Part shown: piece after piece, positions 4,148 through 47,444 of the stretch
How positions within the stretch are numbered: position 1 is the first letter of the stretch
Layout of the letters: every line of letters begins with the position of its first letter
NCBI GenBank assembly: GCA_903870275.1
Contig: CAIQCK010000034.1
Span: 1-64,000 of the forward strand
Origin: an uncultured bacterium
Lineage (GTDB): Bacteria > Verrucomicrobiota > Verrucomicrobiia > CAIQCK01
Direction: 5' to 3'
DNA length: 64,000 nucleotides
Notes under the pieces: generated by a model
Databases searched by the model: none
The model's input: only the letters and a program-made list of their open reading frames with translations
What the model was told of the DNA's origin: nothing
Translations under genes and position numbers: made by a program

Positions 4148-4209
4148 GGTCTCTTCTTCGGTTTCGGGCGATCTGTTCTTGAAAGTCGCGGCCTCTTCAT
4201 GCGCGAGCG

Positions 4210-13595: not shown

Positions 13596-13663
13596 AGCTG
13601 ACGGCCCTGGACGGCCACAGGCAGGGCGCATCTCGTGTTTTGGACTGCTCCGCTCCGGCCGCA

Positions 13664-13882: not shown

Positions 13883-13981
13883 CGCGCTCGGAGAGCTTCG
13901 AAACACGCAGCAACAAAAAGCGTGGCTCAGACCCATCCACACATACGTTTCAAAAACTGAGATGCGTCCCTGCGAGCATCG

Positions 13982-14036
13982 CAGCTTTCTGAGAGACGAT
14001 CACTGCAACCGCTGCAGAAAGCTGTAGTTCCTACAG
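13982..14036. repeat. Small double-hairpin element
   Basis: A 10-bp arm at 13982-13991 pairs with 14015-14024, and an overlapping hairpin (CTGTAG-TTC-CTACAG) occupies 14022-14036. No ORF is credible here. It resembles a short interspersed palindromic repeat. The rest of 13596-14080 outside this and the long inverted repeat shows no gene. Confidence 0.4.
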
Positions 14037-14080
14037 CAGTCCAAAGCCTTCGGCTTCATGGAAGCTCATCCCCACAAACA

Positions 14081-14110
14081 ACAAGGGACAGCCCGGAGGC
14101 TGTCCCTTGT
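14081..14110 (-). terminator. Rho-independent terminator of ilvC
   Basis: A perfect 13-bp stem (14081-14093 with 14098-14110) closes on a 4-nt loop. On the minus strand it is followed by TTGTTTGT, and it begins 26 nt after the ilvC stop. Confidence 0.75.
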
Positions 14111-14135
14111 GAAACGATCTTGATGGATCAGGCGC

Positions 14136-15236: not shown

Positions 15237-15336
15237 GATGTTTTGTCCTTCGCTTTGTTACCGCGCAGCGACCAACTCGACACACCGCCGGAACAATGTT
15301 TCTTTATCGTTTGCTTGCTTCCGATTGGAGCGCCGA

Positions 15337-15364
15337 ATCCTAGTGGCGAAACTCCGCCAGTCAA
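15337..15364 (-). promoter_or_regulatory. Putative ilvC promoter
   Basis: Read on the minus strand, TTGACT (15364-15359) and TAGGAT (15342-15337) are spaced 16 nt apart, about 100 bp upstream of ilvC. A short palindrome (GGCG...CGCC) lies between the hexamers and could be an operator, but this is speculative. Confidence 0.45.
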
Positions 15365-15410
15365 ATAGAAACTGACCACAAAATAGCACAGGATGGTGAA
15401 CCAGGGGCAT

Positions 15411-16121
15411 CTACTGGGCTTTCGCTTTTGTCGGCGGGCCGAGGTGCAGGCGCGTCAGCTGCACACGGATGTCGTAGCCGGCGGCGTTCGGGTGAAGGCG
15501 GTCGGCGACGAACAAGTCCTCGCGCGGCTGGCCGTCCGAACCGAGAAAGGCGTCGAAAATGTTGATGTAGTCCAGGTTCTTGCCGTAGGCGATATAGTCC
15601 TTGATGAGTTGGTTGGTGCGGCGCTGTTTTTCCATATCGGCGGCGCGCACCGGCGACGGGCTGATGGCGAAAAACGCGATGCGCGCGTCCGGCAAGGCGT
15701 CCCGGACTTTTTCAACGAACGCCTTGAAGTCCTCGGCCACCTGCTCCGGCGATTTGCCGGCGTGAAGGTCGTTGCCGCCCGCGCCAAGCACGATCAGCCG
15801 CGGTTTGTAGGGAATAACGATCCGGTCGGCGTAGAGGGTCGCGTCGGCAATCTGCGAACCGCCAAAGCCGCGGTTGATGATTTCGTGTTTTGGAAAATCC
15901 CTCGCGAGTGTTTTCCAAAGCCGGATGCTGGAGGAACCAATGAACAAGATCGCGTCGTGCGGCGGCGGGTTCTTCTGGTCAGCGGCCTCGAAGGCCTGGA
16001 TTTCCTTTTCCCATCGCTGGCCCGGCGCTTGATCAGCGGCAAACAACGCCGGGGCGCAAACGAGCAGCAGCGATGCGAGACCCACCCGGACCGAAAGCGG
16101 ACGGCAGCGGAAGTTGCTCAT
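15411..16121 (-). CDS. SGNH/GDSL-family hydrolase, exported
   Basis: A 236-aa esterase/lipase-fold protein. Signal peptide about 1-28 (ending ALFA). Block I has the nucleophile Ser in FIGSSSIRLW, block II the Gly in GGSQIAD, block III the GGND motif (GAGGNDLHAG), and block V the Asp-His pair in ADRLHPNAAGY, so the site is complete. Such proteins in this phylum usually act as carbohydrate (acetyl)esterases or platelet-activating-factor-acetylhydrolase-like enzymes; the substrate is not determinable. A TAGAAT -10-like box lies 12 nt before the ATG with no Shine-Dalgarno sequence, so the message may be nearly leaderless. It sits between ilvC and an isochorismatase-family gene on the same strand with no clear functional link. 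Confidence 0.88.
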   Translation of the reverse strand: MSNFRCRPLSVRVGLASLLLVCAPALFAADQAPGQRWEKEIQAFEAADQKNPPPHDAILFIGSSSIRLWKTLARDFPKHEIINRGFGGSQIADATLYADRIVIPYKPRLIVLGAGGNDLHAGKSPEQVAEDFKAFVEKVRDALPDARIAFFAISPSPVRAADMEKQRRTNQLIKDYIAYGKNLDYINIFDAFLGSDGQPREDLFVADRLHPNAAGYDIRVQLTRLHLGPPTKAKAQ

Positions 16122-16178
16122 AGTGTTGGCGGCATTCTACCGGCGCAGGCGTGCGCACTCACGCAAATTTTTTCGAGA

Positions 16179-16736
16179 TCATTTCACCAGCGGCAAAACC
16201 TGCTTGAACTCGTCGGTGCCGGCGCGGCTGAGCAGTTCGAAAAGCACCATCTCGGTGGAGGCGATGAGGGCGCCGGCGTCGCGCATCCTTTCGACGGCAA
16301 TGCGATGGTTCTCCGGCGTCCGCGACGAGATCGCGTCGGCCGCGATGCAGGCGCGGAAACCACGATCGAGAAGGTCCAGGCAGGTCTGGGCCACGCAGAC
16401 GTGCGCCTCGATGCCGCAGAGGATGACGTCGCGGACGCCCTTGGCTTCGAGCGCGGCAACGAACCCCTCCGCGCCGCACGAACTGAAGGCGAGCTTCTCC
16501 ATCGGCGCGAAGCCCGGCACGGCGGCGGCCACCTCCGGCACGGTCGGGCCGATGCCCTTGCGGTATTGCTCGGTCACGAAAATCGGCAGGCCCATGATCG
16601 CCGCGCCTTTGACAAGCCGCACGGCGTTGGCCACAACGCGATCCCTCTCGTGGATCGCAGGCAGCAGCCGCTCTTGAATGTCCACCACTACCAAACCGGC
16701 CTTGTCCCGCGCGATGCGATGCGAAGTCGTGTTCAC
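16179..16736 (-). CDS. Isochorismatase-family cysteine hydrolase
   Basis: A 185-aa alpha/beta hydrolase of the isochorismatase/nicotinamidase superfamily. The catalytic triad positions are visible: Asp in VVVDIQERL, Lys in MEKLAFSS and Cys in GIEAHVCVAQT. The cis-peptide region (GIEAH) is typical. The start is GTG (16736), supported by AGGAA 6 nt upstream. This subgroup (YcaC-like, about 180 aa) is poorly characterised; true isochorismatase or nicotinamidase activity should not be assumed. It lies 57 bp upstream of the SGNH gene on the same strand and is divergent from the large FAD protein. Confidence 0.87.
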   Translation of the reverse strand: MNTTSHRIARDKAGLVVVDIQERLLPAIHERDRVVANAVRLVKGAAIMGLPIFVTEQYRKGIGPTVPEVAAAVPGFAPMEKLAFSSCGAEGFVAALEAKGVRDVILCGIEAHVCVAQTCLDLLDRGFRACIAADAISSRTPENHRIAVERMRDAGALIASTEMVLFELLSRAGTDEFKQVLPLVK

Positions 16737-33781: not shown

Positions 33782-35020
33782 CTATCCCGCCGCATGGATT
33801 GCCACCAGAGTCACATCATCATCCTGCTCTGCGCCGCCACGATAGGTCAGCAGAGTTGTCACCAAAGCATCGCAGGCCGCCTGCGCTTTGGCACCGGCCA
33901 GATCACCGAGGACTTTGCCCAACCGTTCACGGCCAAAATCCTCCCCTTGGAGATTCCGACAATCACACATCCCGTCCGTGAAAAGCAGGAGCGTGTCGCC
34001 GGAAACGAGCGTGACGGATTGTTCGTCGAGGTCGAAATCGGGAACGACTCCTATCGGCATGCCCGGATTGTATGGAAGTTCGGTGACTTGTCCATGAGCG
34101 CTGACCTTGAGCGGAATCTCGTGCCCTGCGCGGGCATAAATGAGTTCCCCGGTACGGTAATTCAGGATGCCATAGATCACCGTCACAAACAGATCGGTCT
34201 GTTCGAGACGCGTCAGATACTGGTTGACGTGACGCAGAACCGCGCCGGGCGCTCCGCCGCGCAGGGCTTCCGCGGTGATGAGCGCATGGGTCCGAGCCAT
34301 ATAGATGGCCGCTGGCACTCCCTTGCCTGCGACGTCGCCAATCAACACCCCGATGCGATCGTCGTCCAGCGGGAACACATCGTAGAAGTCACCGCCTACG
34401 ACGCGCGCCGGGTCCATGCGAGCGCCGAACTCAAAACCCGGGACCTGGGGCAGCGTGTGAGGCAGGATCGAAACCTGGATTCCGGCGGCGAGTTGAAGAT
34501 CGCGTTCGAGGCGTTCCTTTTCAATGATCTGCGCCTGGGCGGCCTTGAGTTCATCGTAAGCCTTCTGAAGCTGGCGGTTCTTTTCAACCAGATCCCGAAA
34601 AGCGGCCGTATCGGAATTCGCCAGCCGCCCGCTCAACACCTTTCCCATGTTATAGGCCATGCGCGGCTGGCGTTGCAAAAGTCCCTCAAAATCGAGGCGG
34701 GTCATCACCCACAACTGGCAACGATCTTTGGCCCGGGCGCCAGCGGAACGCTGCCCTTGGAACGTCAGAAGGCTCATTTCGCCCAGGTATTCACCCGGCC
34801 CGATGGTCTGGAGAATGCGCTCTTCCGGGGTGTTCATGCCCTTGACCACCTCGACGTGACCGGCAATCACCACGAACAACTCGTTGCCAGCCTCTTGTTC
34901 CTGGAAGAGCACGGCCCCCGGCGTCATATCCAGCACACGCAAGGTGGCGGCGAGACGTTCCAGTTCACTGGCCGGCAATCCACTGAAGAGAGGAACGCGA
35001 AGCAGCAGGTCTGTATTCAT
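33782..35020 (-). CDS. cNMP-binding-domain SpoIIE/RsbU-type Ser phosphatase
   Basis: A 412-aa cytosolic protein. An N-terminal cyclic-nucleotide-binding-like domain (about 5-125, GNELFVVIAGHVEVV and GPGEYLGEMSLL) is joined by a coiled coil (about 140-175, KNRQLQKAYDELKAAQAQIIEKERLERDL) to a PP2C-type SpoIIE phosphatase (about 180-408). Metal-binding signatures are GGDFYDV, IGDVAGKGVPAA and LFTDGMCD. Such enzymes dephosphorylate Ser on STAS anti-anti-sigma proteins and so turn on partner switching. It is the last gene of a minus-strand operon with a STAS protein and an RsbW-like kinase, so those are its likely partners. Whether the N-domain binds cAMP, c-di-GMP or nothing is open. Confidence 0.9.
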   Translation of the reverse strand: MNTDLLLRVPLFSGLPASELERLAATLRVLDMTPGAVLFQEQEAGNELFVVIAGHVEVVKGMNTPEERILQTIGPGEYLGEMSLLTFQGQRSAGARAKDRCQLWVMTRLDFEGLLQRQPRMAYNMGKVLSGRLANSDTAAFRDLVEKNRQLQKAYDELKAAQAQIIEKERLERDLQLAAGIQVSILPHTLPQVPGFEFGARMDPARVVGGDFYDVFPLDDDRIGVLIGDVAGKGVPAAIYMARTHALITAEALRGGAPGAVLRHVNQYLTRLEQTDLFVTVIYGILNYRTGELIYARAGHEIPLKVSAHGQVTELPYNPGMPIGVVPDFDLDEQSVTLVSGDTLLLFTDGMCDCRNLQGEDFGRERLGKVLGDLAGAKAQAACDALVTTLLTYRGGAEQDDDVTLVAIHAAG

Positions 35021-35114: not shown

Positions 35115-36836
35115 TCAGTCCAAATGCCGAAGGAACTGTTTTGCAGCCTCCACGAAAGGCGACAGCGGCGGAACTTCGTTCGGATCAATGATGCAGTCAA
35201 TGACGGTGGTCTTGCCCGAAGCAATTGCTTCCGGCAGGAGGCGTTTGAGTTCGCCGGGCTTCTCGACCACGTGCCCCACCGCGCCCAAGCCTTCCGCCAC
35301 TTTCGCCGCGTTGATTTTGCGAAACCGGGTGGCGACGGTGTTCTGACCCAGGCTGAAGGTCTGGAGATCATGAACCAAGCCGAGCTTCTGGTTGTTCAAG
35401 ATGACATAAACCACCGGGATGTCATTATGGACCGCCGTGGCGATTTCCATGCCGTTCATGAGGAAGCAGCCGTCGCCGGCAAGACAAACCACGGGACGCC
35501 GGCCGGCCGCCAGTTTGCCTCCGACCGCCGCGGCAATCCCATAGCCCATGGTGAGCATGCCGAACGGTGTGATGACCGAGCCGGGCCGACGAAACTTCAT
35601 GTAGTGGATCACCCAGTTGATCGAATTGCCCACGTCCACAAAGAGAATCGCATCGTCGGGCAGGGTTTCTTGCAGCTCCCGAATGATGCGCTGGGGTTTG
35701 AGCGGCACGCTGTCCGAATCGAGTTTCGCCGGATCGAGGCACGTGCCCACTTTGGCCCGGAGTTCTTCCACGGCCTTCACCCGCTCTTCCCATTGCGTCT
35801 GGCTCCCGGCGAGATGACGCAACACGCGAAACGCAATCTCATTGGCGATGGTGCGCGCGTCGCCAACCAGCGGAATCTGCGTGAGGTAGTTCTTGCCGAT
35901 TTCGGCCGGATCAATATTGACGTGGATAAGGCATTTCGACGGCGCCAGACGCGGGTCCCACGACAGGGTGGTCATTTGATTCAAACTCGCCCCCACGACG
36001 AGGAGCACGTCCGTCTGGCCGGACCGCAGGTAGTTTTCCGCCAGTGGCGAGCCGCATAGACCCAGCACGCCCAGCGCCAGCGGATGGTCCTCGGGGAACG
36101 CGCCCTTGGCCTTGGGCGTGGTGGCCACGGGCAGGTTGAGCATCTCCGCGAGTTCCTTCAGGTCGTCACAGGCCCCGGAAGAGATGGCGCCGGAACCAAT
36201 CAGCATGGCGGGATGCCGGGCCTGAACGAGTTGTTCGGCAGCATCAATCACCAATCGCCGGTCGAAGTATTCCGCTGGCACGCGAAAGGTGGAGGTGGCC
36301 ACGGCGTCAAATTCGATCTCCGCCATCTGAATGTCCTTGGGCAGGCTGAGATGGACGGGCCCTTTCTTGCCTGTCATGGCCACGCGCAGCGCGGCCTGCA
36401 AATCCTCGACCGCCTTGTGCCGGGAGATGATCATGCTCGAGTGTTTGGTGATCGGCTCGAACATCTTGACCGAGTCAATGCCTTCCTTGGAAGAATCCTG
36501 AAAGGCGCCTTTGCCATACATGGAAGTCTCGACCTGGCCGGTCAGAACAAGGATCGGCACATTGTCCATGTAGGCGTTGGCCACACCGCTGACGAGGTTG
36601 GTGGCGCCGGGACCGGAGGTGGCAAAGCAGGCGCCAAACCCGCCTTTGACGCGCGCGTAGCCATCCGCCATGAAGGCCGCGCCCTCCTCGTGTTTGGCCA
36701 GGATGGGGCGAACGACCTTGTTGCGGTTCGTGGCGGCCAGCAGCGGCACGATGGTGGTGCCTGGAATTCCGAACATGTATTCCACACCCTCGGATTCCAA
36801 AAACTTCAGGATGACGTCGGCAACCGTGGTTTTCAT
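35115..36836 (-). CDS. ThDP-dependent enzyme, acetolactate-synthase-like large subunit
   Basis: A 573-aa three-domain ThDP enzyme. The catalytic Glu is E50 in KHEEGAAFMADGYAR. The central domain with GSGAISSG and the C-terminal ThDP motif GDGCFLMNG...NN (about 435-465) are intact. It resembles acetolactate synthase/oxoacid decarboxylases. There is no ilvN regulatory subunit nearby and ilvC is 20 kb away, so valine/isoleucine synthesis is doubtful; sulfopyruvate-, benzoylformate- or oxalyl-type activities are possible. It sits 19 bp downstream of a STAS antagonist gene and 94 bp upstream of a SpoIIE-type phosphatase, which suggests a signalling-linked metabolic role, but the connection is unexplained. 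Confidence 0.82.
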   Translation of the reverse strand: MKTTVADVILKFLESEGVEYMFGIPGTTIVPLLAATNRNKVVRPILAKHEEGAAFMADGYARVKGGFGACFATSGPGATNLVSGVANAYMDNVPILVLTGQVETSMYGKGAFQDSSKEGIDSVKMFEPITKHSSMIISRHKAVEDLQAALRVAMTGKKGPVHLSLPKDIQMAEIEFDAVATSTFRVPAEYFDRRLVIDAAEQLVQARHPAMLIGSGAISSGACDDLKELAEMLNLPVATTPKAKGAFPEDHPLALGVLGLCGSPLAENYLRSGQTDVLLVVGASLNQMTTLSWDPRLAPSKCLIHVNIDPAEIGKNYLTQIPLVGDARTIANEIAFRVLRHLAGSQTQWEERVKAVEELRAKVGTCLDPAKLDSDSVPLKPQRIIRELQETLPDDAILFVDVGNSINWVIHYMKFRRPGSVITPFGMLTMGYGIAAAVGGKLAAGRRPVVCLAGDGCFLMNGMEIATAVHNDIPVVYVILNNQKLGLVHDLQTFSLGQNTVATRFRKINAAKVAEGLGAVGHVVEKPGELKRLLPEAIASGKTTVIDCIIDPNEVPPLSPFVEAAKQFLRHLD

Positions 36837-36855: not shown

Positions 36856-37188
36856 TCAGGCCGCGCTCTGTGCGGCTTCTTCGACGGATGGGAACACAGG
36901 AATAATATTGGTGAATCCAGCAGTCTCCAGAACTTCATAGACATATCCGGTCTTGGCGCACACGATCAGCAACTGGCCTCCGGCCTTTTTGAGCGCCTTG
37001 GCCACGACCAACAGCACGCGCAGTCCGGCACTGGAGATGTATTTGGTCGCGGCGCAATCGCAAATGATGTTGCGCGCGCCGCCGGCTACAATGGCCTGGA
37101 GGGTGGCTTCAATGTCTCGAGACGAGAGAGAGTCAACCCGTTCTAATAACTTGACGACGGTGGCGTTGGGCAGGTTTTGAGTCTCCAT
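36856..37188 (-). CDS. STAS-domain anti-sigma-factor antagonist
   Basis: A 110-aa single-domain STAS protein (SpoIIAA/RsbV fold). The phosphoacceptor region reads TKYISSAGLRVL, with S53 aligning with SpoIIAA Ser58. In partner switching the unphosphorylated form binds an RsbW-type kinase and frees its target; phosphorylation by the kinase and dephosphorylation by a SpoIIE phosphatase set the balance. Both partner types flank it in the same operon. The start is well supported by GAGGTGA just upstream. Confidence 0.92.
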   Translation of the reverse strand: METQNLPNATVVKLLERVDSLSSRDIEATLQAIVAGGARNIICDCAATKYISSAGLRVLLVVAKALKKAGGQLLIVCAKTGYVYEVLETAGFTNIIPVFPSVEEAAQSAA

Positions 37189-37320: not shown

Positions 37321-37746
37321 TCAGCATCGAATGGCAATGATGAGGCGGTTGCGTCCGTCGCGGCGTTCGTAGCGCATGTCTTCAGCGAACTTGCGGACCA
37401 GATGAATTCCAAGGCCGCCGGGGGTGCGTTGTTCGGCCGGAAGATGGACGTCCGGATCCGGGGCGGTGAGGGGATTGAACTCGTGGCCGTCGTCTTCGAT
37501 GGTCAGGACAAGCCGTTGGGGCAAAACTTCCACGCGCAGTAATATTTCGTGTGTGGCGTCGTCCTTGTAGCCGAACTTGAGAGTATTCGTGACCATCTCC
37601 TCGATGGCGAGGTTGGCGACGTAAGACGCCTGTCCGTTGACGCCGTGCGCTTCGATGAAGCGCATGGCCTCTTCCGTCACACGGCCAAGATCGGGCAGAC
37701 TGTTTGGGAAGCGGCGTTCAAAAACGTTTGGCGGCTCCGTGTTCAT
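37321..37746 (-). CDS. RsbW/SpoIIAB-like serine kinase (HATPase_c_2)
   Basis: About 141 aa with the GHKL ATPase motifs: N-box IEEMVTNTLKFGY, G1 IEDDGHEFNP and G2 TPGGLGIHLVRKFAED. It lacks a histidine-kinase dimerisation domain, as expected for an anti-sigma or STAS-directed Ser/Thr kinase. The start could be 37746 or the ATG at 37767; the latter overlaps a GAGGAG that would serve the former at 13-nt spacing. First gene of a minus-strand operon (kinase, STAS, ThDP enzyme, phosphatase) divergent from the ABC-transporter operon. No sigma factor gene lies in the window, so the final target is unknown. Confidence 0.87.
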   Translation of the reverse strand: MNTEPPNVFERRFPNSLPDLGRVTEEAMRFIEAHGVNGQASYVANLAIEEMVTNTLKFGYKDDATHEILLRVEVLPQRLVLTIEDDGHEFNPLTAPDPDVHLPAEQRTPGGLGIHLVRKFAEDMRYERRDGRNRLIIAIRC

Positions 37747-38040
37747 CGAAACAGGCGATCTCCTCATTCACGGTCCGGCACACAAGGTCCCGGACGCTTT
37801 GCGAGCCAGGCAGATCGCGCTTGCGGGTTTCTGCGCTGGCCTTGACATGGTGTTTTAATGGACGCAGCCAGTCTATGAGTCCCGCGATGAACCGACAACC
37901 GAAAAGAGCGCGGCGCAGATTCTCCATCCTGGCGCCCGCCGTTGCCGGTTGATCATGCGTGGCAGTCGGGGGACGGTTGCGCTTGCTTCCGGTGGCGCAA
38001 ATCAAGTATCAGTTTTGTCCACGGCTTCAACGCGAATATA
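37747..38040. other. Divergent control region between the two signalling operons
   Basis: These 294 bp separate the kinase gene (minus) from the substrate-binding protein gene (plus). It should hold both promoters. A TTGACA at 37844-37849 on the plus strand has no good -10 partner. No clear operator palindrome was found. No gene is credible inside it. Confidence 0.4.
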
Positions 38041-40995
38041 ATGCAAGTTCTCAAACGAATCCTGCTGTCGCTGGTCCTGCTGGGAGCGGCGGCATCGACG
38101 CTGCTGCTGTCCGATCTCCACTCGCGAGAAGGTGAGCGCGCCAAAAACCAGTCGATCCGGACCAGGATTCCTGTGGCGATGCTCAAGCACGCCTCGAACC
38201 TGTTGCTGGACGAGGTCGAGCGCGGCGTACTGCAGAAGCTCGCCGCCGAAGGTTACAAGGACGGCGAGCAAATCGCGTTGCAACGGTTCACCGCCGAGGG
38301 GGATTTGCCCACCGCAAACGCCATTGCCCAACATGTCGCGGACGGCAGTTTCAAGCTGGCCATTACCATCAGCACGCTCTCGCTCCAATGCGTGGCCAAC
38401 GCCAACAAGAACGGCCGCGTCATTCACGTCTTCGGCGGTGTGACGGATCCGGCCGGCGCGGGCGTGGGTATTCAGCAAATGAACTCGACCAACAAGCCGC
38501 CGTGGCTGGCCGGCATCGGCACGTTCCAGCCCGTGGAACAAATCTTCCGCGAGGCCAAGCGGCTATGGCCCGGCTTGAAAGTCGTCGGCGTGGTGTGGAA
38601 CCCCGCCGAGCGCAACTCGGAGGCCTGCACGCTCAAGGCCCGCCAGATTTGCCGCGAACTGGGCATGGAACTTCTCGAAGCGAACGTGGACCAGAGCAAG
38701 GACGTGCGCGAGGCCGCCGATTCGCTGGTGTCCCGCGGCGCGCAGGCATTCTGGACCGGGGCGGATGTCACCGTAATGAGCGCCACCGCCGCGCTGTGCG
38801 AAACGGCCCTCAAGGCGAAAGTTCCCGTCTTCTCCAACACCAGCGGTCAGGTGCGTGAAGGCACGCTGTTCGATCTTGGCGCGAACTATCTGGAGGTGGG
38901 CCAGCGCATCGCTGAAATCGCCTCCGCCATCCTCGGCGGACAGAATCCCGCGACCATGGTCGTCACCAACTTCATGCCGGAGCGGGTCATGCTGAACAAG
39001 CAGGTCCTGAAAAAGATGCGCGACCCGTGGCGATTCACCGACGACATTGTTTCACGCGCCGCCTTGATCCTTGGCAAGGATGGCAGCGTCGAAAAAGATA
39101 TCAGCAAGTCCGCATCGGCTGCCGCCGTGCCCGGGCCGCGCGCTGTTGTTTCACCGACGGAGCATCCGTTCAAGATTGGCCTTGCCTACTTCGGCCCCGA
39201 TGAGGGCACGGACAGCGCCATCGCTGGGCTGATGGACGGGTTGCGCAAACTCGGAATTGTCGAGGGGCGCAACCTCACGGTTCAAAAGGTCCACGCCAAC
39301 GGCGAGATTAGCGGCATCCCAACCATGATCCAATCGCTCGAAGCGGGTGACGTGGACGTCATCGTTCCGTTTTCGACGCCGGTGATCACTGGCGCTTGCG
39401 CCACCGTGCGCCGCAAGCCGGTCGTGTTCACCTATTGCTCCGACCCGATTGCCGCCGGCACGGGCAGGAGTTTCGAGGATCACCTGCCGTTTGTGACCGG
39501 CATCGGCTCCTTCCCGCCCGTCGAGGACGGGGTCGCCGTGTTGAAGCTGATCTTCCCCAAGCTCCAGCGGCTCGGCACGCTCTACAATAACGCCGAGGCC
39601 AATTCGGTGAAGGTCGTTTCGGTGCTGCGCGAGATCTGCGGCAAGAACGGCATCCAACTGATCGAGGCCATCGCCAACAATACGAGCGAGGTGGTGCAAG
39701 CGGCGCAATCGCTCGGCGCTCGCGGCGCGGAGGCGGTGTATCTTCCCGGCGACAATACCGCTTACCAGGCGTTCGATGGTCTTGTGGGCCAACTGACCAC
39801 GGCAAAAATCCCGTTGGTGATTGATGCGCCGGAATACAGCCATCGCGGCGCACTGGCGGTGGTGGGCGTCGGCTACTACCAGAGCGGTGTTGCCGCCGCC
39901 GAGCCGTTGGCGCGCGTGCTGCGGGGCGAGACGCCGGCAAAGATTCCGATGCGAAATGTCACGGACAAGAAGGTGATCTTCAACCAGGACGTGGCGCGCA
40001 AACTGGCTGTGCGATTCCCGCCGGAGGTGCTGGCCATGCAAACGGTTGAAACGCCCGCCGCAACCCCGGCCGCGCCACCGCTGGCAAAACCCTGGCTGAT
40101 TCAGCAGGTGTCTTACATCGAATCGGTCCTGGTAGAAGACGCGATGCATGGATTTGCAGACGGTTTGAAGGAGGCGGGTTTGAGAGAGGGAACAGATTTC
40201 AAGATCAAGACACTCAGCGCGCAAGGCGACATGGCCTCTTTGGGCATGCTTTACGATTCCGCCAAAACCGCCAATGTTGATCTTTACATGGTCTATGGCA
40301 CGCCGACGCTCCAGACCGCCGTCCAGAAAGTCCGGAACACGCCCGTCATGTTTACGGTGGTGGCAGACCCGTTCGTGGCGGGCGCGGGCAAGTCCGACCA
40401 GGACCATCTGCCGAACATCACCGGCGTTTACACGCTAGGCCCCTATCGAGAGATGGCGGAGTTGTTGCGAACACACTTCCCGCAGATCAAGCGCGTCGGC
40501 ACGTTGTTTTGTCCCGCGGAGGTCAACTCGGTGGTTAACAAGTACATGTTCACCCGCGAAGCCGTCCGCTGCGGGTTGACGGTGGAGACCGTTGCGGCCA
40601 ATACCGCGAGCGAGTTGCCCGACGCGGCGATGGCCTTGTGCGGCCGCCACATTGATGCTGTGGTTCAGGTCATTGACAACCTTTCCAGCGCCGGCTTTCC
40701 CACCATCGCGCGGGCGGCGGCGCAAGCGCGGTTGCCCGTGTTCGCCTGCCACGGTGACGGCGTCAAACATGGCGCGGCAGTCGCCTTGGCGCGCGACTAT
40801 TACGACGCGGGGCGCGAAACGGCGCTCAAGGCGGCGCGCGTGATGCGCGGCGAAAGCCCGGCGCAGATTCCGTTTTCACCGCCGACCAAGGTGCTGAAGC
40901 TGGTAAACCTGAAGAGCGCCCAAGACAGCCATCTGGTCATTCCCGAAGCATGGCTTCGAGAAGCAAAACAAGTCACCGGCACGACCCAACCTTGA
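38041..40995 (+). CDS. ABC substrate-binding protein with three tandem domains
   Basis: A 984-aa exported protein with a hydrophobic signal/anchor at about 5-25. It contains three successive copies of the periplasmic binding domain of the TrpX/COG2984 type (ABC_sub_bind), at about 41-345, 378-668 and 685-980, separated by Pro/Ala linkers. Each has the family landmarks: a start like IGLAYFGPDEG, a block with VFTYCSDP or FTVVADPFVAGAG, and a GTLFCPAEVNS-like segment. Family members are usually about 320 aa with one domain and bind aromatic amino acids or related compounds; three in one chain is unusual. No Shine-Dalgarno sequence is clear at 38041. It heads the operon with STAS fusion, permease, ATPase and kinases, so it probably delivers ligands or senses them. 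Confidence 0.88.
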   Translation: MQVLKRILLSLVLLGAAASTLLLSDLHSREGERAKNQSIRTRIPVAMLKHASNLLLDEVERGVLQKLAAEGYKDGEQIALQRFTAEGDLPTANAIAQHVADGSFKLAITISTLSLQCVANANKNGRVIHVFGGVTDPAGAGVGIQQMNSTNKPPWLAGIGTFQPVEQIFREAKRLWPGLKVVGVVWNPAERNSEACTLKARQICRELGMELLEANVDQSKDVREAADSLVSRGAQAFWTGADVTVMSATAALCETALKAKVPVFSNTSGQVREGTLFDLGANYLEVGQRIAEIASAILGGQNPATMVVTNFMPERVMLNKQVLKKMRDPWRFTDDIVSRAALILGKDGSVEKDISKSASAAAVPGPRAVVSPTEHPFKIGLAYFGPDEGTDSAIAGLMDGLRKLGIVEGRNLTVQKVHANGEISGIPTMIQSLEAGDVDVIVPFSTPVITGACATVRRKPVVFTYCSDPIAAGTGRSFEDHLPFVTGIGSFPPVEDGVAVLKLIFPKLQRLGTLYNNAEANSVKVVSVLREICGKNGIQLIEAIANNTSEVVQAAQSLGARGAEAVYLPGDNTAYQAFDGLVGQLTTAKIPLVIDAPEYSHRGALAVVGVGYYQSGVAAAEPLARVLRGETPAKIPMRNVTDKKVIFNQDVARKLAVRFPPEVLAMQTVETPAATPAAPPLAKPWLIQQVSYIESVLVEDAMHGFADGLKEAGLREGTDFKIKTLSAQGDMASLGMLYDSAKTANVDLYMVYGTPTLQTAVQKVRNTPVMFTVVADPFVAGAGKSDQDHLPNITGVYTLGPYREMAELLRTHFPQIKRVGTLFCPAEVNSVVNKYMFTREAVRCGLTVETVAANTASELPDAAMALCGRHIDAVVQVIDNLSSAGFPTIARAAAQARLPVFACHGDGVKHGAAVALARDYYDAGRETALKAARVMRGESPAQIPFSPPTKVLKLVNLKSAQDSHLVIPEAWLREAKQVTGTTQP

Positions 40996-41007: not shown

Positions 41008-42258
41008 ATGGAAATCACCCGCACAGCCCGCGCCGACCAATTCGAGATCAAGCTGAAAGGCCGGATGGACGCCATGTGGAGCGACCACGTCGCCAGCGCG
41101 CTGGCCGAATGCGTGCGCGGCGGGCAACACGCCATCGCGGTAGACATGGCGGAAGTGGATTACATCAGCTCTGCCGGCATTCGCATCCTCGTGCTCTACG
41201 CACGGCAGATCAAGGGCATCCAGGGGCGGTTTGTTGTCATTAATGCTTCAGTCAACGTCCGGAAGGTTCTGGAGCTAGCCGGACTCAAGGCGCTGCTGCA
41301 CGCCGAAGGCGGACTGGCAGCGAAATCGCCGACCACCGCCACCGAACCTTGCGCGCGGAAAATCGCATTCCCGCAAGCCGGCGCGATGGCGAATGTGTTC
41401 GATTTGCAGGAAGGCGCGGTGCTGCGCGTTCAAGGGCTCGGCAACCCCGTGCCGTGGCTCGAAGGCAGGGCGCAGCCCGACGCGTATTCTGCGATTGAGT
41501 TCCCCGCCAACGTCATGGGCATCGGCCTGGGCGCTTTCAGTTCCGGCGATCCATCGGACACCGGGCACTTCGGGGAATTTCTTGCCGCCGCAGGGGCCGC
41601 GGTTTGCCAGCCGGCCGACGGTTCGAACAAGCCCGACTACATGCTGGTCCAGGGCGCGCTGACCCCGGCGATGAAGGTGGCTTATGGCATGTCCGGACGC
41701 GGCGCTTTCGCGCGACTGGTGCGGTTCGACAAGGGCGCGCCGCATTCGAGTTTGCCGCTGAGTGCCGTTGCGAAGACCTGTCTGGAGGCCGTCAACAGCG
41801 ACGCCGTTGGCATCGTCATGGTGGCGGAGACGGCTGCATTGGTGGGCGCGTCGCTCCAAAAAACTCCGTCGAGCCAGACGGCAGAAGGCCATGCGAAGAA
41901 CATCTTCGCCTTTCCCGAAATTCGCGACTGGCTGAGCTTCACCGCTGAGGCGGCATTTGCCAATTCCACTTGTCTCATCGTCGGCTTCGCTGCCAGCAAG
42001 GCCCGCAGTTCCGGTTTCAATCTGCTCAAGCCGCTGGTGGCGTCGGGTGAACTTTACGGCCATTTTCACGCGGCGGCGTTTCCGTATCGTCCGTTGCGCA
42101 AAGGCAAGGTGGACCTGAGCGAAGCCGTCCAGCCACTGTTTGAGACCGAGAACGTCCTCGGCCTGCTGCATCTCCTGAACGATTGGCGTGAGGTCAGCGG
42201 CGCGGGCGAGAGCCGTTTCCTGCGCGGCGCCTGCTGGTGCGCGCCGTTGGCGACCTGA
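41008..42258 (+). CDS. STAS domain fused to an uncharacterised domain
   Basis: A 416-aa cytosolic protein. Residues 1-100 are a STAS domain with VDYISSAGIRIL; S55 aligns with the phosphoacceptor Ser. After a linker (about 101-118) comes a domain of about 295 residues that I do not recognise; it has PANVMGIGLGAFSSGDPSDTG (split here by nothing, residues about 170-190), several conserved-looking Gly/Pro turns, and ends in RGACWCAPL. It lies between the substrate-binding protein and the permease, 13 bp from each, so it must belong to the transporter or its control. A plausible reading is that STAS phosphorylation by the RsbW-like kinase of the divergent operon gates the transporter. The C-terminal role is unknown. 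Confidence 0.75.
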   Translation: MEITRTARADQFEIKLKGRMDAMWSDHVASALAECVRGGQHAIAVDMAEVDYISSAGIRILVLYARQIKGIQGRFVVINASVNVRKVLELAGLKALLHAEGGLAAKSPTTATEPCARKIAFPQAGAMANVFDLQEGAVLRVQGLGNPVPWLEGRAQPDAYSAIEFPANVMGIGLGAFSSGDPSDTGHFGEFLAAAGAAVCQPADGSNKPDYMLVQGALTPAMKVAYGMSGRGAFARLVRFDKGAPHSSLPLSAVAKTCLEAVNSDAVGIVMVAETAALVGASLQKTPSSQTAEGHAKNIFAFPEIRDWLSFTAEAAFANSTCLIVGFAASKARSSGFNLLKPLVASGELYGHFHAAAFPYRPLRKGKVDLSEAVQPLFETENVLGLLHLLNDWREVSGAGESRFLRGACWCAPLAT

Positions 42259-42271
42259 ACTAAAAACTGTC

Positions 42272-43216
42272 ATGACCCTGTTGCTTGGAGCACTGACTAT
42301 CGGCCTGATCCTGTCGCTGTTGGCGCTGGGCGTCTATATCAGCTACCGCGTTTTCGACATTGCCGATATCACCGTGGATGGATCCATCACGTTCGGCGCG
42401 GCCATCTGCGCCGTGTTGCTTGTCAACCGGGTCAATCCGCTGCTCGCCACGTTTGCCGGCTTTTCCGGGGGCGTGTTGGCGGGCACCGTCACTGGCATCT
42501 TGCAGGCGAAGTTCAAGATCAACCCACTGCTGTCGGGCATCCTGGTCATGACGGGCCTTTACTCGGTGAATCTGCACGTCATGGGCAAGAGCAACATCCC
42601 GCTCCTGTCGGCCGGCAGTTTAACCACGTGGGCGGACACGGCGGGCCAGGCATGGTTCGGCTCGCAGGAGGTCAATGTCATAGGCTGGATGATCAGTGCG
42701 CGCGACCTCGTCACATTGATCATGGTCATCGTCATCATCATAGTCGCCTGTCTGGCTCTGTATTGGTTCTTACGCACCGACCTGGGCACGGCCATGCGCG
42801 CTTCGGGCGACAATCCGCAAATGGTTCGCGCCTTGGGCGTCAACGTCGAACGTTACCGCATCATGGGCCTGGCGCTCTCCAACGGCCTCGTCGCGCTCTC
42901 CGGCGCGTTGCTGGCCCAGTATCAAGGCTTTGCTGACGCGCAAATGGGCATCGGCACGATCGTCTGGGGTCTGGCCAGTGTCATCATCGGCGAGTCGCTC
43001 ACCGGCTCGCGCAGCCTCGGTCTGGCAATTTACGGGGCGATCGCAGGGTCCGTGCTATTCCGATTGCTCGTCGCCATCGCGCTGCGCTGGGGATTGAACC
43101 CGAACGACCTCAAGCTGGTGACGGCGTTGTTCGTTTTCGCGGCGCTGGTGCTGCCGCGACTGTTGAAACGAAGGAAACATTCCGCCGCCGTCGCCAAGCC
43201 GCAAAAACAGCCCTAA
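42272..43216 (+). CDS. ABC transporter permease, TrpY/COG4120 type
   Basis: A 314-aa integral membrane protein with about eight hydrophobic segments from residue 4 onward (LLLGALTIGLILSLLALGVY, then segments near 45, 70, 95, 165, 220, 260 and 290). It matches branched-chain/sugar-type (BPD_transp_2) permeases; DITVDGSITFGAAICAVL and ALGVNVERYRIMGLALSNGL are characteristic of the branch paired with COG2984 binding proteins. The start at 42272 is chosen because the hydrophobic N-terminus begins there and the upstream part overlaps the STAS gene. The ATPase gene follows 8 bp downstream. Basic C-terminal tail (KRRKHSAAVAKPQKQ). Confidence 0.92.
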   Translation: MTLLLGALTIGLILSLLALGVYISYRVFDIADITVDGSITFGAAICAVLLVNRVNPLLATFAGFSGGVLAGTVTGILQAKFKINPLLSGILVMTGLYSVNLHVMGKSNIPLLSAGSLTTWADTAGQAWFGSQEVNVIGWMISARDLVTLIMVIVIIIVACLALYWFLRTDLGTAMRASGDNPQMVRALGVNVERYRIMGLALSNGLVALSGALLAQYQGFADAQMGIGTIVWGLASVIIGESLTGSRSLGLAIYGAIAGSVLFRLLVAIALRWGLNPNDLKLVTALFVFAALVLPRLLKRRKHSAAVAKPQKQP

Positions 43217-43224
43217 GGGATGCC

Positions 43225-44037
43225 ATGCTTACCATCCGCAACATCCGCAAGACCTTCAACGCCGGCACCGTCAATGAGGTTCGCGCACTGCGCGGCGTCA
43301 GCATCGACATTCCCGATGGAGCGTTTCTGGTCATTCTCGGCGGCAACGGCTCTGGCAAATCCACCCTCTTGAACGCCGTCGCTGGCGCCTACCCGCTGGA
43401 CGAAGGCGAGATTCACCTCGCTGGCCACAATGTCACGCGCTGGCAGGAACATCAACGCGCGCGGCTGATCGGGCGCGTTTTTCAAAACCCGTTTACCGGC
43501 ACCGCGCCGAACATGTCCATCGCCGAAAACTTCGCGCTCGCCGCCCGGCGCGGCCAGAAACGCGGATTGCGCTGGGCGCTCTCAAAGGGTCTTTTGAACG
43601 ATCTGCGCGATCAGGTAAAACAGTTGAGAATGGGCCTCGAAGACCGGCTCGACAACTCCATCGGCACCCTTTCCGGCGGCCAACGGCAGGCGCTCACGCT
43701 TCTGATGGCCACGTGGATCAAACCGACGCTGCTGTTGCTCGACGAACACACCGCCGCGCTCGACCCCAAGACCGCCGACCAGCTCATCCGCGTCACCGAG
43801 GAAATCGTCACCCGCCACAAGCTCACCACACTCATGGTGACGCACTCCATGCAGCAGGCCGTCAACCTCGGCGACCTCATCGTCATGATGCACCGGGGTT
43901 CTGTGGCCTACCGATTCGAAGGCGCAGACAAGCAACGGCTGCGCGTCGAGGACCTGCTGGCACGCTTCGAAGAATTGCGCCGGCGGGAAATGCTGGACGA
44001 AAGCGTCGCGAATTTGCTAGAGGAAACCTACATTTAG
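43225..44037 (+). CDS. ABC transporter ATP-binding protein, COG1101 type
   Basis: A 270-aa ABC ATPase. Walker A is GGNGSGKSTLL (about 38-48), the signature LSGGQRQALTL, Walker B LLLLDEHTAALDP with catalytic Glu, and the H-loop MVTHSM. LDEHTAALDPKTA is characteristic of the ATPases paired with TrpX-like systems. It powers import through the permease encoded just upstream. AAGGGA precedes the ATG. The downstream STAS gene starts 66 bp later with a small hairpin between. Confidence 0.95.
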   Translation: MLTIRNIRKTFNAGTVNEVRALRGVSIDIPDGAFLVILGGNGSGKSTLLNAVAGAYPLDEGEIHLAGHNVTRWQEHQRARLIGRVFQNPFTGTAPNMSIAENFALAARRGQKRGLRWALSKGLLNDLRDQVKQLRMGLEDRLDNSIGTLSGGQRQALTLLMATWIKPTLLLLDEHTAALDPKTADQLIRVTEEIVTRHKLTTLMVTHSMQQAVNLGDLIVMMHRGSVAYRFEGADKQRLRVEDLLARFEELRRREMLDESVANLLEETYI

Positions 44038-44103: not shown

Positions 44104-44499
44104 ATGCTGGAGATCACCGTCGAAAATCAACCGGAAGGACGCGTTCGGGTCGCTCTGAGCGGTCGTTTGGACACCCAGACCTACGCCCAGTGCGAAGAGC
44201 GCCTACAACCACTGCTCACAGCCAGAACCCGCGTGCTGATCCTGGACATGGCCGGCCTTGACTACATCAGCAGCATGGGACTGCGGGTTTTGATGAAGAC
44301 CACCCGGGCTCTTGGCGCGGTTGGCGGCAAGTGCATCCTCACGCGTCTCCAGCCGCCGATCCGCAAGGTCATTGAGATCGCCAACGCCCTGCCGAAGGAA
44401 GCCGTCTTCGCCAGCGTCGAGGAAGCCGATCGTTATCTGGATATCATGCAGCAACGCGCGCGCGAGGAAGCCTCGAAACCCGCAAGGCCCGGGCAATGA
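44104..44499 (+). CDS. STAS-domain protein
   Basis: A 131-aa STAS (SpoIIAA-like) protein. The conserved site is LDYISSMGLRVL with S57 at the phosphoacceptor position. The last 25 residues are a charged tail absent from minimal antagonists. GGAAA lies 4-8 nt before the ATG. It is the third STAS domain of this island and lies between the ABC transporter genes and a hybrid histidine kinase, so it may link the partner-switching module to that kinase. Its cognate kinase and phosphatase could be those of the divergent operon. Confidence 0.9.
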   Translation: MLEITVENQPEGRVRVALSGRLDTQTYAQCEERLQPLLTARTRVLILDMAGLDYISSMGLRVLMKTTRALGAVGGKCILTRLQPPIRKVIEIANALPKEAVFASVEEADRYLDIMQQRAREEASKPARPGQ

Positions 44500-44621
44500 A
44501 CTTGCGTCCCCAAGGCAAGGGGATAGGGTGTCCGTGTCATCAGGTGGTCCATAGCATCCGAGCGGCGCGCGTTTAAAAAAGCGAGTTCGTGTGGCAGCAA
44601 GAACCGTGCAAAAAGGTTGAT

Positions 44622-47033
44622 ATGCAGTGGTTTCGCGACCTGCCGATCAAACAGAAGTTGTCGCTGGTGGTCATGCTTGCCAGCACCGTGGCCTTGTCAC
44701 TGGCATGCATGATCCTGATCGCGACGGAGATCATTACCTTCCGGCGGGAGATGGCCAACAGCTGGATCGTGCTGGCCCAAGGCATTGGTTACAACGCCAC
44801 CGCCGCCCTGGCCCGCAACGATTCGGCAGCCGCCACAGAGACCCTGAGCGCTCTCAGGGTCGAGTCGCACGTCATCTGCGCCTGTCTCTACGCGAAGGAC
44901 GGCACCCTCTTTGCCCAATACGTCCGCGGAGAATCGAAGATCGCCTTTCCCGCCAAGCCGGGGCCGGATGGCTACGTGTTTGAGAAAGACTGCCTGACGT
45001 TGTTCCGGCCTGTCACTCAAAACAAGCAACGGGTGGCGACGATCTACGTTCGGGCCGACCTCGAAGCCATGTATGCCCGGCTTGGATTGTATGCGGGCGT
45101 CGTCGTCCTGGTGCTCCTGGCGGCCTTGTTCGTGGCTTTCGCCTTCTCCGCCATCCTGCAACGAATCATCGCACAGCCGATCCTGACGCTGGCGGCCACC
45201 GCCAAGATGATTTCGGAAAGGAAAGACTACTCCGTCCGCGCCGAGGCGCGCGGCCAGGACGAATTGGGCGTGCTCACCAACGGTTTCAACCAGATGCTCG
45301 CCAGCATCCAGGAGCGCGAGACCGCCTTGAGCCAGACCAACATGGCCTTCCGGCAGGAGATCGCCGAGCGCATTCGCGCGCAGGAAGAGTTGACCCGGCT
45401 CAACGAAACCCTCGAACAGCGCGTCGCGGAGCGGACCCGCGAAGCCGTCGAAGCCAACCGCGCCAAGAGCGAATTCCTGGCCAACATGAGCCATGAACTG
45501 CGCACGCCGCTGAACTCGGTTATCGGCTTCGCCAACATCCTGCTCAAGAACAAGAACAACAACCTGCGCCAAGACGAGCTGACGTTCCTGGACCGCATTG
45601 CCGCCAACGGAAAACACCTCCTCAATCTCATCAATCAGATTCTCGACCTATCCAAGATTGAAGCCCGAAAGGTGGAATTGGAACTCGCCGCGGTCGCGTT
45701 GGACGTGATGGTTCGCGAGGTGCTCGCGCAACTGGAGGGCCAGGTCCGCGGCCGAGATGTTCGCCTGGTCGCCGAACTGCCGCCGTCCGTCGCCTCCTTC
45801 GAAACCGATGGCGTCAAGCTCCGGCAAGTCCTGATCAATCTCGTGGGTAACGCCCTGAAGTTCACGGAAACCGGCCGCGTTGCCGTTCGCCTCATTACCG
45901 ACCCCGCCACGGGCCGCCCCACGCGCATCGATGTCGCCGATACCGGCATCGGCATCCCGAAGGAACGGCTCGGCGTGATCTTCGAAGCGTTCCAGCAAGC
46001 CGACGTCAGCACCGCGCGCAAATACGGCGGCACCGGCTTGGGGTTGACGATCTCGCAAGCCCTTTGCCAACTCATGGGCTACCACATCGAAGTCACCAGC
46101 GAAGTGGACAAAGGTTCCACCTTCAGCATTCTCCTGACGCCGTCCGCCGCGCGTCCGCCGGGCCAGTCCGGCGCCCCTCCGGGCGCGGCACACGCTGGGG
46201 TCAGAGGTTTCTCGACCGTGCATGGGAAAACCCTGCATGAGTGGAGCGGCCTGAAAACTAAAATCGTGCTCGTCATTGACGACGAACCGGATGCGCGCCT
46301 GTTGCTGACGCACATCATTGAGGACTGCGACTGCCGAGTCCTCACCGCCGGCTCCGGCCAGGAAGGTCTCCGCATGGCCAGGGAAATCCAGCCGGATCTC
46401 ATCACCCTCGACCTCCTGATGCCGCGGATGGACGGCTGGCAGGTGCTGCACGCGATCAAAACCGACCCGCAGCTCGCCCACATCCCGGTCGTGGTCATCA
46501 GCGTGGCGGCCCGCGAGAAAAGAGGCGCTGTCTTCGGCGCGATGGATGTGCTTCAAAAGCCCGTCACCCGCGAGGACTTTCTGCCCGTGCTCAAACGGAT
46601 GTTGCGGGCCGGACGAGGGAGGGTTCTGGTGGTGGACGATGCCGCCGACGACCGCCGCATCTTGACCAACTACCTGTCGGAAGAAGACGTGGAAATCGAA
46701 ACCGCTGTCAACGGTTTGGACGGTCTGGGGAAACTCGAACGATTTGCGCCCGACCTCATCATCCTCGACCTCCTCATGCCAGGCATGGACGGGATGACCT
46801 TCCTCAACAGAATCCGCAACGATACCCGCTATCGCCAGACGCCCGTCATCATCTGCACCGTCAAGGAGTTGAATCCGACGGAAAAACTGCGCCTCGATCA
46901 GCAAGCCCAAGCCGTCCTTCAAAAGGCCGAAGATCTGGAAAGAGAACTCAAGCGCGTTTTGCACGAACTGTTGAGGCACCCGTCTGCCGGCGGCTGGCGA
47001 CCGGCGGCCGGGAGGGCTTCGCCGTCCGGCTGA
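44622..47033 (+). CDS. Membrane hybrid histidine kinase with CHASE-type sensor and two receivers
   Basis: An 803-aa membrane protein. Transmembrane helices at about 15-37 and 150-175 flank a short CHASE8-like periplasmic sensor (NSWIVLAQGIGYNATAAL at its start). HAMP (about 175-228), a coiled coil, then HisKA with H291 in MSHELRTPLNS, and HATPase_c (NLVGNALKFTE, DTGIGIP, GGTGLGLTI). Two receivers follow: D597 (LDLLMPRMDG) and D716 (LDLLMPGMDG). In the second the position following the Thr/Ser is less typical. The start at 44622 has AAAGG upstream; an earlier ATG/GTG region does not. It phosphorylates its own receivers and probably the CheY-like protein encoded next. Ligand unknown; it may sense the state of the ABC system. 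Confidence 0.92.
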   Translation: MQWFRDLPIKQKLSLVVMLASTVALSLACMILIATEIITFRREMANSWIVLAQGIGYNATAALARNDSAAATETLSALRVESHVICACLYAKDGTLFAQYVRGESKIAFPAKPGPDGYVFEKDCLTLFRPVTQNKQRVATIYVRADLEAMYARLGLYAGVVVLVLLAALFVAFAFSAILQRIIAQPILTLAATAKMISERKDYSVRAEARGQDELGVLTNGFNQMLASIQERETALSQTNMAFRQEIAERIRAQEELTRLNETLEQRVAERTREAVEANRAKSEFLANMSHELRTPLNSVIGFANILLKNKNNNLRQDELTFLDRIAANGKHLLNLINQILDLSKIEARKVELELAAVALDVMVREVLAQLEGQVRGRDVRLVAELPPSVASFETDGVKLRQVLINLVGNALKFTETGRVAVRLITDPATGRPTRIDVADTGIGIPKERLGVIFEAFQQADVSTARKYGGTGLGLTISQALCQLMGYHIEVTSEVDKGSTFSILLTPSAARPPGQSGAPPGAAHAGVRGFSTVHGKTLHEWSGLKTKIVLVIDDEPDARLLLTHIIEDCDCRVLTAGSGQEGLRMAREIQPDLITLDLLMPRMDGWQVLHAIKTDPQLAHIPVVVISVAAREKRGAVFGAMDVLQKPVTREDFLPVLKRMLRAGRGRVLVVDDAADDRRILTNYLSEEDVEIETAVNGLDGLGKLERFAPDLIILDLLMPGMDGMTFLNRIRNDTRYRQTPVIICTVKELNPTEKLRLDQQAQAVLQKAEDLERELKRVLHELLRHPSAGGWRPAAGRASPSG

Positions 47034-47069: not shown

Positions 47070-47444
47070 ATGAAAAAGATTGCTGTAGTCGAGGACAACC
47101 CGGACAACCGCCTTCTCGTGCGGGTCATGCTGGAAGGTTTTTACGATGTTACCGCCTACGAAACCGGTGTCGAGGCGCTGGGCGGATTCAAACGCCAGAA
47201 ACCCGACCTGATCTTGCTCGACATATCGCTGCCGCAAATGGATGGCACGGAAGTTCTGCGCCGTCTTCGCGCCGACAGCGGTCTGCGCGGTATTCCCGTC
47301 ATCGCCCTCACGGCCCACGCCATGGCGGGAGACCGCGAGAAATATCTCGGCGCGGGCTTCAACGATTACATCGCCAAGCCGATCCTCGACGGAAACCTCT
47401 TCCTGACCGCCATCGAGCGCGCCCTGCCCGGCGCCGCCGCCTGA
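47070..47444 (+). CDS. CheY/DivK-like single-domain response regulator
   Basis: A 124-aa receiver without output domain. The acidic pocket is E8-D9, phosphoacceptor D51 (LLDISLPQMDG), Thr in IALTAHAM and Lys in YIAKPI. It resembles DivK. It lies 36 bp downstream of the hybrid kinase, which is its likely phosphodonor. It probably acts by protein-protein interaction; no methylesterase, GGDEF or DNA-binding partner is in the operon. Last gene of the signalling operon. Confidence 0.92.
   Translation: MKKIAVVEDNPDNRLLVRVMLEGFYDVTAYETGVEALGGFKRQKPDLILLDISLPQMDGTEVLRRLRADSGLRGIPVIALTAHAMAGDREKYLGAGFNDYIAKPILDGNLFLTAIERALPGAAA

Follow-up and report, generated by a model that had tools for sequence, protein, structure and literature searches.

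What is a STAS protein with a long C-terminal extension doing in the middle of an ABC importer operon? The question is raised by the window, that is, the whole stretch of 64,000 nucleotides analysed here from a contig of an uncultured verrucomicrobial bacterium, in which such a gene lies between the genes for a substrate-binding protein and a permease. The features concerned, in window positions, are:

33782-35020, reverse strand: one protein combining a CRP-like (cNMP-binding) region with a PP2C-type phosphatase region
35115-36836, reverse strand: TPP enzyme of the acetolactate-synthase family, scoring under the cut-offs of the families listed
36856-37188, reverse strand: stand-alone STAS antagonist (STAS_A, E 2.2e-16)
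37321-37767, reverse strand: RsbW-like serine kinase (HATPase_c_2, E 1.1e-22), divergent from the ABC operon
38041-40995, forward strand: substrate-binding protein with three tandem PF04392 domains (Pfam)
41008-42258, forward strand: fusion gene, STAS plus predicted ALDC/PTD012-fold domain, 416 aa
41008-41343, forward strand: STAS domain, aa 1-112 (Pfam, NCBIfam), with the Ser55 codon at 41170-41172
41344-42255, forward strand: C-terminal domain, aa 113-416, predicted ALDC/PTD012-like fold (models, fold searches, conservation, profile comparison)
41575-41577, 42061-42063, 42067-42069 and 42169-42171, forward strand: candidate metal-site codons for Glu190, His352, His354 and His388, respectively
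42272-43216, forward strand: permease (BPD_transp_2, Pfam E 3.9e-32)
43225-44037, forward strand: ABC ATPase (ABC_tran, E 7.8e-29)
44104-44499, forward strand: stand-alone STAS protein (STAS_B, E 2.5e-17)
44589-47033, forward strand: hybrid histidine kinase, CHASE8-HAMP-HisKA-HATPase-2x receiver
47070-47444, forward strand: response-regulator receiver protein, 124 aa

The initial annotation had recognised an ABC transporter operon here, and its parts were confirmed by Pfam: the PF04392 binding protein (three domains), the BPD_transp_2 permease and the ABC_tran ATPase together give the make-up of a COG2984 importer. By eye, the binding protein starts with a hydrophobic stretch, either a signal or an anchor. 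Its reading frame ends at 40995 and the ATG of the fusion gene is at 41008, leaving 12 bp between them; another 13 bp separate the end of the fusion gene's stop codon (42258) from the permease ATG (42272). The 13-bp spacings given earlier, and the roughly 295 residues counted after the STAS domain, were right to within a base or so.

The fusion gene was found to hold the same position in distant relatives. A one-genome-per-species scan gave 92 relatives, of which 80, with 74-31% identity, were analysed; their record titles name Verrucomicrobia, Planctomycetes, Acidobacteria, Deltaproteobacteria, Sumerlaeota, Armatimonadetes, Bacteroidetes and Elusimicrobia, and because nearly all of the relatives are metagenome bins, some of these titles may be wrong. 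The permease gene is directly downstream in 78 of the 80 loci, and in the other two the contig ends there. The binding-protein gene is directly upstream in 68/80 loci and downstream of the ATPase gene in 5/80; in two loci (L034 and L092) no binding protein was recognised in the approximately 10 kb upstream. An ATPase gene was found downstream in 73/80. Since homologues ranging from 74% to 31% identity occupy the same position, the fusion gene is not a chance open reading frame. When 93 genomes were searched for the C-terminal part alone, eight were positive, the window's own genome included, and the STAS part was present in all eight proteins; one genome of the same genus (G002) lacked the C-terminal domain. 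No relative was found on plasmids at E 1e-5. An apparent fusion of this protein to the permease in one relative was rejected: the reading frame crosses a masked stretch, so the case carries no weight.

Co-occurrence was then scored in 387 genomes of the phylum, from the first four fusion-protein, five permease and six PF04392 candidates per genome. The protein, in the form here called type I, was present in 13, and permeases of this clade (at least 56% identity) were present in the same 13 genomes; one further genome has a permease of 41% identity and no fusion protein. The two genes adjoin in 12 of the 13, and in the other (G418, locus L157) they are about 4 kb apart. Fourteen genomes had matched the fusion protein at E ≤ 1e-89; one (G075) was dropped because its protein is of a distant type (23% identity), was itself in the query alignment and has no such ABC genes alongside. 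The 80 loci and the genome set overlap (L016/G003, L025/G052, L033/G088, L037/G011, L091/G030), and so the two samples are not independent. These results make the gene a conserved, position-locked part of the importer operon, as had been proposed. They do not extend to COG2984 systems at large, for which a constant association had been suggested as a check: PF04392 matches at E ≤ 1e-20 were found in 21/387 genomes, and 8 of the 21 lack the fusion, which therefore marks one clade of COG2984 importers rather than all of them. In the 8 fusion-less genomes the PF04392 frames are 284-404 aa, the size of a single domain, whereas in the 13 fusion-bearing genomes the longest frames are 658-1355 aa, as expected of tandem domains. 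Tandem binding domains are not universal, as two of the loci (L033 and L091) show one domain. Elsewhere in the genome set up to four PF04392 matches were seen in one frame, the frames reaching 1355 aa.

Beyond the type I proteins is a distant set, called type II, with 21-25% identity to the window protein; type I rows have 29-42% or more. The identity ranges are separate, so the division does not depend on the genes alongside. Our type II sample comprised ten loci of ten genomes (L015, L126-L134), four of which also carry type I, and no COG2984-type ABC genes were recognised beside the type II homologues at these ten loci.

The N-terminal STAS assignment was upheld. Pfam places PF01740 at aa 14-97 (E 1.4e-10; 41.3 bits, cut-off 22.6), and in NCBIfam the protein passes TIGR00377, the anti-sigma antagonist family (58.1 bits, cut-off 53.45); the STAS domain is nearest to anti-sigma factor antagonists. 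In the predicted model this part matches 3f43 by VIA with Z 16.6 over 109 residues at 2.0 Å. The alignment for modelling consisted of the window protein and 70 of the 80 relatives, ten having been excluded because of a stop codon, a frameshift, masking, an unusual start, truncation or near-duplication; that for the C-terminal model had 68 rows. A Pfam scan of the 71 rows found STAS families in 71/71 and each other family in one or two rows, never with an E-value better than 0.07. In the alignment with SpoIIAA, Ser55 falls on the first Ser of the DSSG motif, a position occupied by Ala in chain 1tid_B; we take this Ser to be the phosphorylated Ser58 of SpoIIAA. Ser54 and Ser55 are kept in 71/71 type I rows and in 10/10 type II rows.

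The C-terminal part, by comparison of sequences, resembles no family that we searched, in agreement with the initial annotation. There was no Pfam match at E ≤ 1, no PHROGs match at E ≤ 1 and no NCBIfam match at E ≤ 0.1, all three NCBIfam matches falling in the STAS part; the PDB sequences gave a single chance match of 28 residues (E 0.63). The ALDC profiles (PF03306/TIGR01252) matched neither the window protein (Pfam, NCBIfam) nor any of the 71 rows (Pfam), and genome G000 has no PF03306 match at E ≤ 1e-10. PF08925 likewise matched neither the window protein nor the 71 rows in Pfam; a genome search with PF08925 gave nothing, controls included, and is uninformative. AlphaFold models of the whole protein (mean pLDDT 91.7, pTM 0.91) and of the C-terminal part alone (pLDDT 91.7, pTM 0.92) were obtained, and a Foldseek search of the PDB with the latter gave ALDC (5yho_A, E 2.4e-5) and PTD012 (1xcr_A, E 1.1e-4). 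The TM-scores are modest: the 12 matches with E ≤ 0.001 have 0.42-0.46 when normalised by query length and 0.44-0.64 by target length. Rows ranked under the ALDC and PTD012 chains, with probability 0.10 or less, were treated as background. With VIA the same C-terminal predicted model matched ALDC 6j92_A at Z 16.8 (198 residues, 3.0 Å, 14% identity) and PTD012/C11orf54 1xcr_A at Z 13.9 (232 residues, 4.4 Å). The next ranks were four small proteins at Z 9.8-7.5, one titled PPC and one AF0104, and then HutD at 4.6 and below; all four small proteins presumably belong to the PPC/DUF296 group. A suggestion made by eye, that the C-terminal part is an inactive PP2C phosphatase, was ruled out by the fold searches, which lead to ALDC/PTD012.

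Profile comparison gives weak support for the relation to ALDC. An 81-row alignment of the domain scored 36.2 by hhalign against 20 ALDC sequences, a score reached by none of 100 column-shuffled ALDC profiles (maximum 24.6) or by the reversed profile (20.5). The hhalign probability is low, 39.5 at best and 13.5 for type II alone, and the type I rows alone are weak (E 0.011 and 0.0079, probability 3.8 and 5.0). The alignment spans the first half, with the GE of the STAS-fusion family falling on the GE of ALDC; in a forced full-length alignment, the HxH does not fall on the HxH of ALDC. For the ALDC profile, 18 of 20 loci with the pattern HxHF...GGH were used, plus L018 and L155, so that GGH is in the profile by construction. 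On the predicted models, then, the C-terminal domain is a divergent ALDC/PTD012-fold domain, and what had been called an unknown domain has a known enzyme fold. The shared fold by itself shows no function. The initial annotation would have been refuted by a C-terminal part that is a known enzyme domain unrelated to transport; this applies in part, as the enzyme fold is there, although the link to transport is conserved.

Several of the residues conserved in this domain make up a candidate metal site. Glu190, Asp210, His352 and His354 are found in 71/71 type I rows and His388 in 69/71, the other two rows having gaps there. Invariant in the 68-row C-terminal alignment are E190, D210, R306, H352, H354, R361, H388, D392 and R394, eight of which were also counted in the 71 rows. 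The ten distant type II rows have E190 in 10, D210 in 10, H352 in 8, H354 in 9 and H388 in 9. R306 and R361, present in 71/71 type I rows, occur in only 0 and 1, respectively, of the ten type II rows; being almost confined to type I, they may serve to recognise the ligand in the type that goes with the importer. The metal ligands of ALDC are the Glu of GE, the HxH, a third His and a C-terminal Glu. In ALDC sequences, chosen here by the HxHF...GGH pattern, the third His is close behind the HxH, as part of GGH. In our model the HxH is on strand 349-358, helix 370-380 comes next, and His388 is on the following strand, 385-389; we infer that His388 takes the place of the third His, from a strand beyond an inserted helix. 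The chain of the model ends at the position of ALDC residue 230, so that the C-terminal tail of ALDC, which carries the additional ligand Glu, is missing. The model thus suggests that Glu190, His352, His354 and His388 form a metal site, the equivalence to ALDC being one of strand order in a predicted model.

What could act on Ser55? The window segment 33782-37767 brings together an RsbW-type kinase, a STAS antagonist and a PP2C-type phosphatase, so that each of the three components of a partner switch has a candidate here. The phosphatase is named for a similarity to SiaA (aa 146-408, E 1.6e-18) which, like that of its CRP-like part (aa 32-137, E 1.8e-12), is below the equivalog cut-off. The RsbW-like kinase is below every NCBIfam equivalog cut-off, and its own sequence is the sole match at E ≤ 1e-6 in its genome. 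For 40 loci, here called well-flanked, 6.5 kb or more of upstream and 3 kb or more of downstream sequence was available; of these, 18 have an RsbW-like match within 8 kb, 20 another STAS match and 13 a PP2C-type match. No RsbW was found within 8 kb in 22 of the 40, or in 10 of 18 genomes; the partner switch is therefore not an obligate neighbour. Nonetheless, 9 of the 34 RsbW matches in the 18 type I genomes (9 matches in 8 genomes) are within 8 kb, where about 0.12 would be expected. Near the 80 loci there are 27 RsbW matches, 14 of them on the operon strand, and the closest is 12 bp before the binding-protein match. Given the kept Ser55, the adjacent RsbW-like kinase and PP2C-type phosphatase, and the fixed position of the gene, a phospho-switchable cytosolic component of the importer is a reasonable proposal. 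At a locus of the same genus (L010:13989-16929) two genes that by eye resemble those for an NMT1-type binding protein and a sensor-type phosphatase are located between the ABC operon and RsbW.

Genes for acetolactate enzymes are found at few of the loci; they are nevertheless the ones that the fold would predict. ALS-family genes are near 4/80 relatives (L018, L019, L023 and L033), and also in the window and in genome G001. The TPP enzyme of the window scores best against NF004919 (468.6 bits, cut-off 866), with 457.9 bits against TIGR00118 (cut-off 538.35). At L018 and L023 the TPP enzymes beside the locus are AlsS above curated cut-offs (694 bits, cut-off 551). An ALDC gene is near 1/80 relatives, L018, where it follows the ABC ATPase gene on the same strand and matches the ALDC profile at E 1e-74. 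In this planctomycete the ALDC gene (13118-13828, forward) is convergent with genes for AlsS (13976-15754), RsbW (15751-16269) and STAS (16202-16531), all on the reverse strand. Among the 20 ALDC loci, only L149 (G140) has an RsbW-type match within the short flanks. Two further arrangements were seen. At L155:5037-8771 (G156) genes for PP2C, STAS, RsbW and ALDC follow one another on one strand, the ALDC being over the TIGR01252 cut-off and the PP2C being named by similarity to the phosphatase of the window; no such ABC genes are in the part listed for that locus. At L159:6844-8802 (G140) an RsbW match and a gene that is STAS-like by eye only converge on an ALDC gene.

How does this protein compare with known systems? 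With ALDC (AlsD, PF03306, TIGR01252) it shares the C-terminal fold, the GE and HxH, and, in a few loci, AlsS or ALDC genes alongside; unlike ALDC, it has no family-level sequence match, has its third His past an inserted helix, ends sooner, is joined to STAS and is placed in an ABC operon. With PTD012/C11orf54 (DUF1907, PF08925) it shares the fold over the 232 residues matched, but not the PF08925 profile, and C11orf54 has no STAS domain and is an enzyme of sugar-acid metabolism. We know of no transport link for PTD012/C11orf54. C11orf54 is reported to be a 3-dehydro-L-gulonate decarboxylase whose Zn is held by three His and whose structure is related to ALDC (PMC12435205). SpoIIAA/RsbV-RsbW-RsbU systems also have a STAS protein with an invariant Ser at the phosphoacceptor position, and kinase and PP2C-type phosphatase genes such as those of the window; here the STAS domain carries a large enzyme-fold domain and lies inside an importer operon. 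TrpXYZ-type COG2984 importers (e.g., Streptococcus suis TrpX) have the PF04392 binding protein, and we take their permease and ATPase to be of the same general kind as here, but the present operons often have tandem binding domains and, in all loci seen, the STAS fusion protein.

The closest precedent is MlaB. It had been supposed that a STAS subunit on an ABC system would be new; in MlaFEDB the STAS protein MlaB binds the ATPase MlaF, in an ABC transporter of another type, and at the interface is MlaB Thr52, at the position used for phosphoregulation in other STAS proteins, phosphorylation of MlaB itself not being shown there (PMC7367683). By this precedent, an ABC ATPase can carry a STAS protein whose phosphoacceptor-type residue is located where the two meet. 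In common with MlaB, the fusion protein is a STAS protein encoded with an ABC transporter (78/80 loci). MlaB is a single minimal STAS domain serving a lipid transporter, with no second domain. In the literature searched, from which subscription papers were mostly absent, so that the search is no proof of absence, we found no description of the STAS-ALDC combination, nor, judging by titles and within the same limit, of this operon. As far as we have seen, the parts are of known kinds, and their combination and fixed place in an importer operon are new.

We tentatively favour, at somewhat short of an even chance, the reading that the protein works in the cytosol as a switchable subunit or regulator of the importer, its metal-dependent domain binding a keto acid or possibly acting on it. 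The fusion protein would serve specifically one clade of COG2984-type ABC importers. Phosphate would be placed on Ser55 by the RsbW-like kinase encoded nearby and taken off by the PP2C phosphatase; the state of Ser55 would decide whether the STAS domain engages its partner, the simplest partner being the ABC ATPase, as with MlaB on MlaF. The ATPase contact is thus presumptive, as is the direction of control. The C-terminal domain, with its probable Glu/three-His metal site, would bind, and perhaps decarboxylate, an acetolactate-like beta-keto or 2-hydroxy-3-keto acid; alternatively, its ligand might be the imported solute or the first product thereof. The fusion protein would thus tie both the activity of the importer and the partner-switch pathway to the level of a cytosolic metabolite. 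The conserved pairing of the two domains suggests an importer under the control of a metabolite and of a stress-type switch. A bolder version, which we think unlikely, is that these operons encode ABC importers of a new kind, in which a fourth component is obligate: a STAS subunit bearing a decarboxylase-fold metabolite sensor, so that transport is gated by a kinase/phosphatase partner switch and by a keto-acid (acetolactate-type) signal. If true, acetoin-type overflow metabolism would be linked to nutrient uptake in several phyla. To our knowledge, little is understood of how ABC importers are switched after synthesis. MlaB being the STAS precedent found, this operon would add a second, testable case in another type of transporter, and with its decarboxylase-fold domain it would show the ALDC fold employed beyond acetoin and sugar-acid metabolism. 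Because the protein co-occurs exactly with one permease clade, the claim that it is a subunit can be tested directly.

In the main rival reading the protein is an enzyme: its C-terminal domain would be active on the imported solute as a metal-dependent decarboxylase or lyase, and STAS would only dock it to the transporter or set its activity. This is possible but doubtful. In its favour are the nine invariant residues, E190 to R394, and the two closest folds, ALDC and C11orf54, both of beta-keto acid decarboxylases (for C11orf54, PMC12435205). Against an active enzyme, neither the GGH spacing nor the C-terminal tail of ALDC is kept, Pfam and NCBIfam give no ALDC match, and at L018, with an ALDC gene alongside, a second decarboxylase of the same substrate would be redundant.

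Next in line is a role confined to transcription, the protein being an anti-sigma antagonist that reports the importer's ligand without contacting the transporter proteins. The kinship of its STAS domain to anti-sigma factor antagonists, the RsbW and PP2C genes nearby, and the ten type II loci at which COG2984-type ABC genes were not recognised are all in keeping with such a role, but a permease gene next door in 78/80 loci and presence in the same 13/387 genomes are more than a reporter needs, and RsbW was not found near 22 of the 40 well-flanked loci; we consider it quite improbable. As for an accidental or lineage-specific insertion with no role in the system, we found nothing in favour of it, and it is refuted by the conserved position and by homologues of 31-74% identity across the eight titled groups, leaving it a negligible chance. 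The switchable importer subunit thus remains our preferred reading.

Some features of the type II homologues remain to be described. They keep the STAS domain and most of the metal-type residues, one protein (L130) being without two of the three His. At L127 and L128, both of one genus, genes that by eye resemble those for a sugar-type ABC permease and a binding-protein fusion adjoin the type II gene, and no neighbour common to the remaining type II loci was seen. The 5.6-kb contig G095:C252 (L133) has two type II copies with identical scores, at 796-2046 on the reverse strand and 3599-4849 on the forward strand; this inverted pair is perhaps an assembly palindrome.
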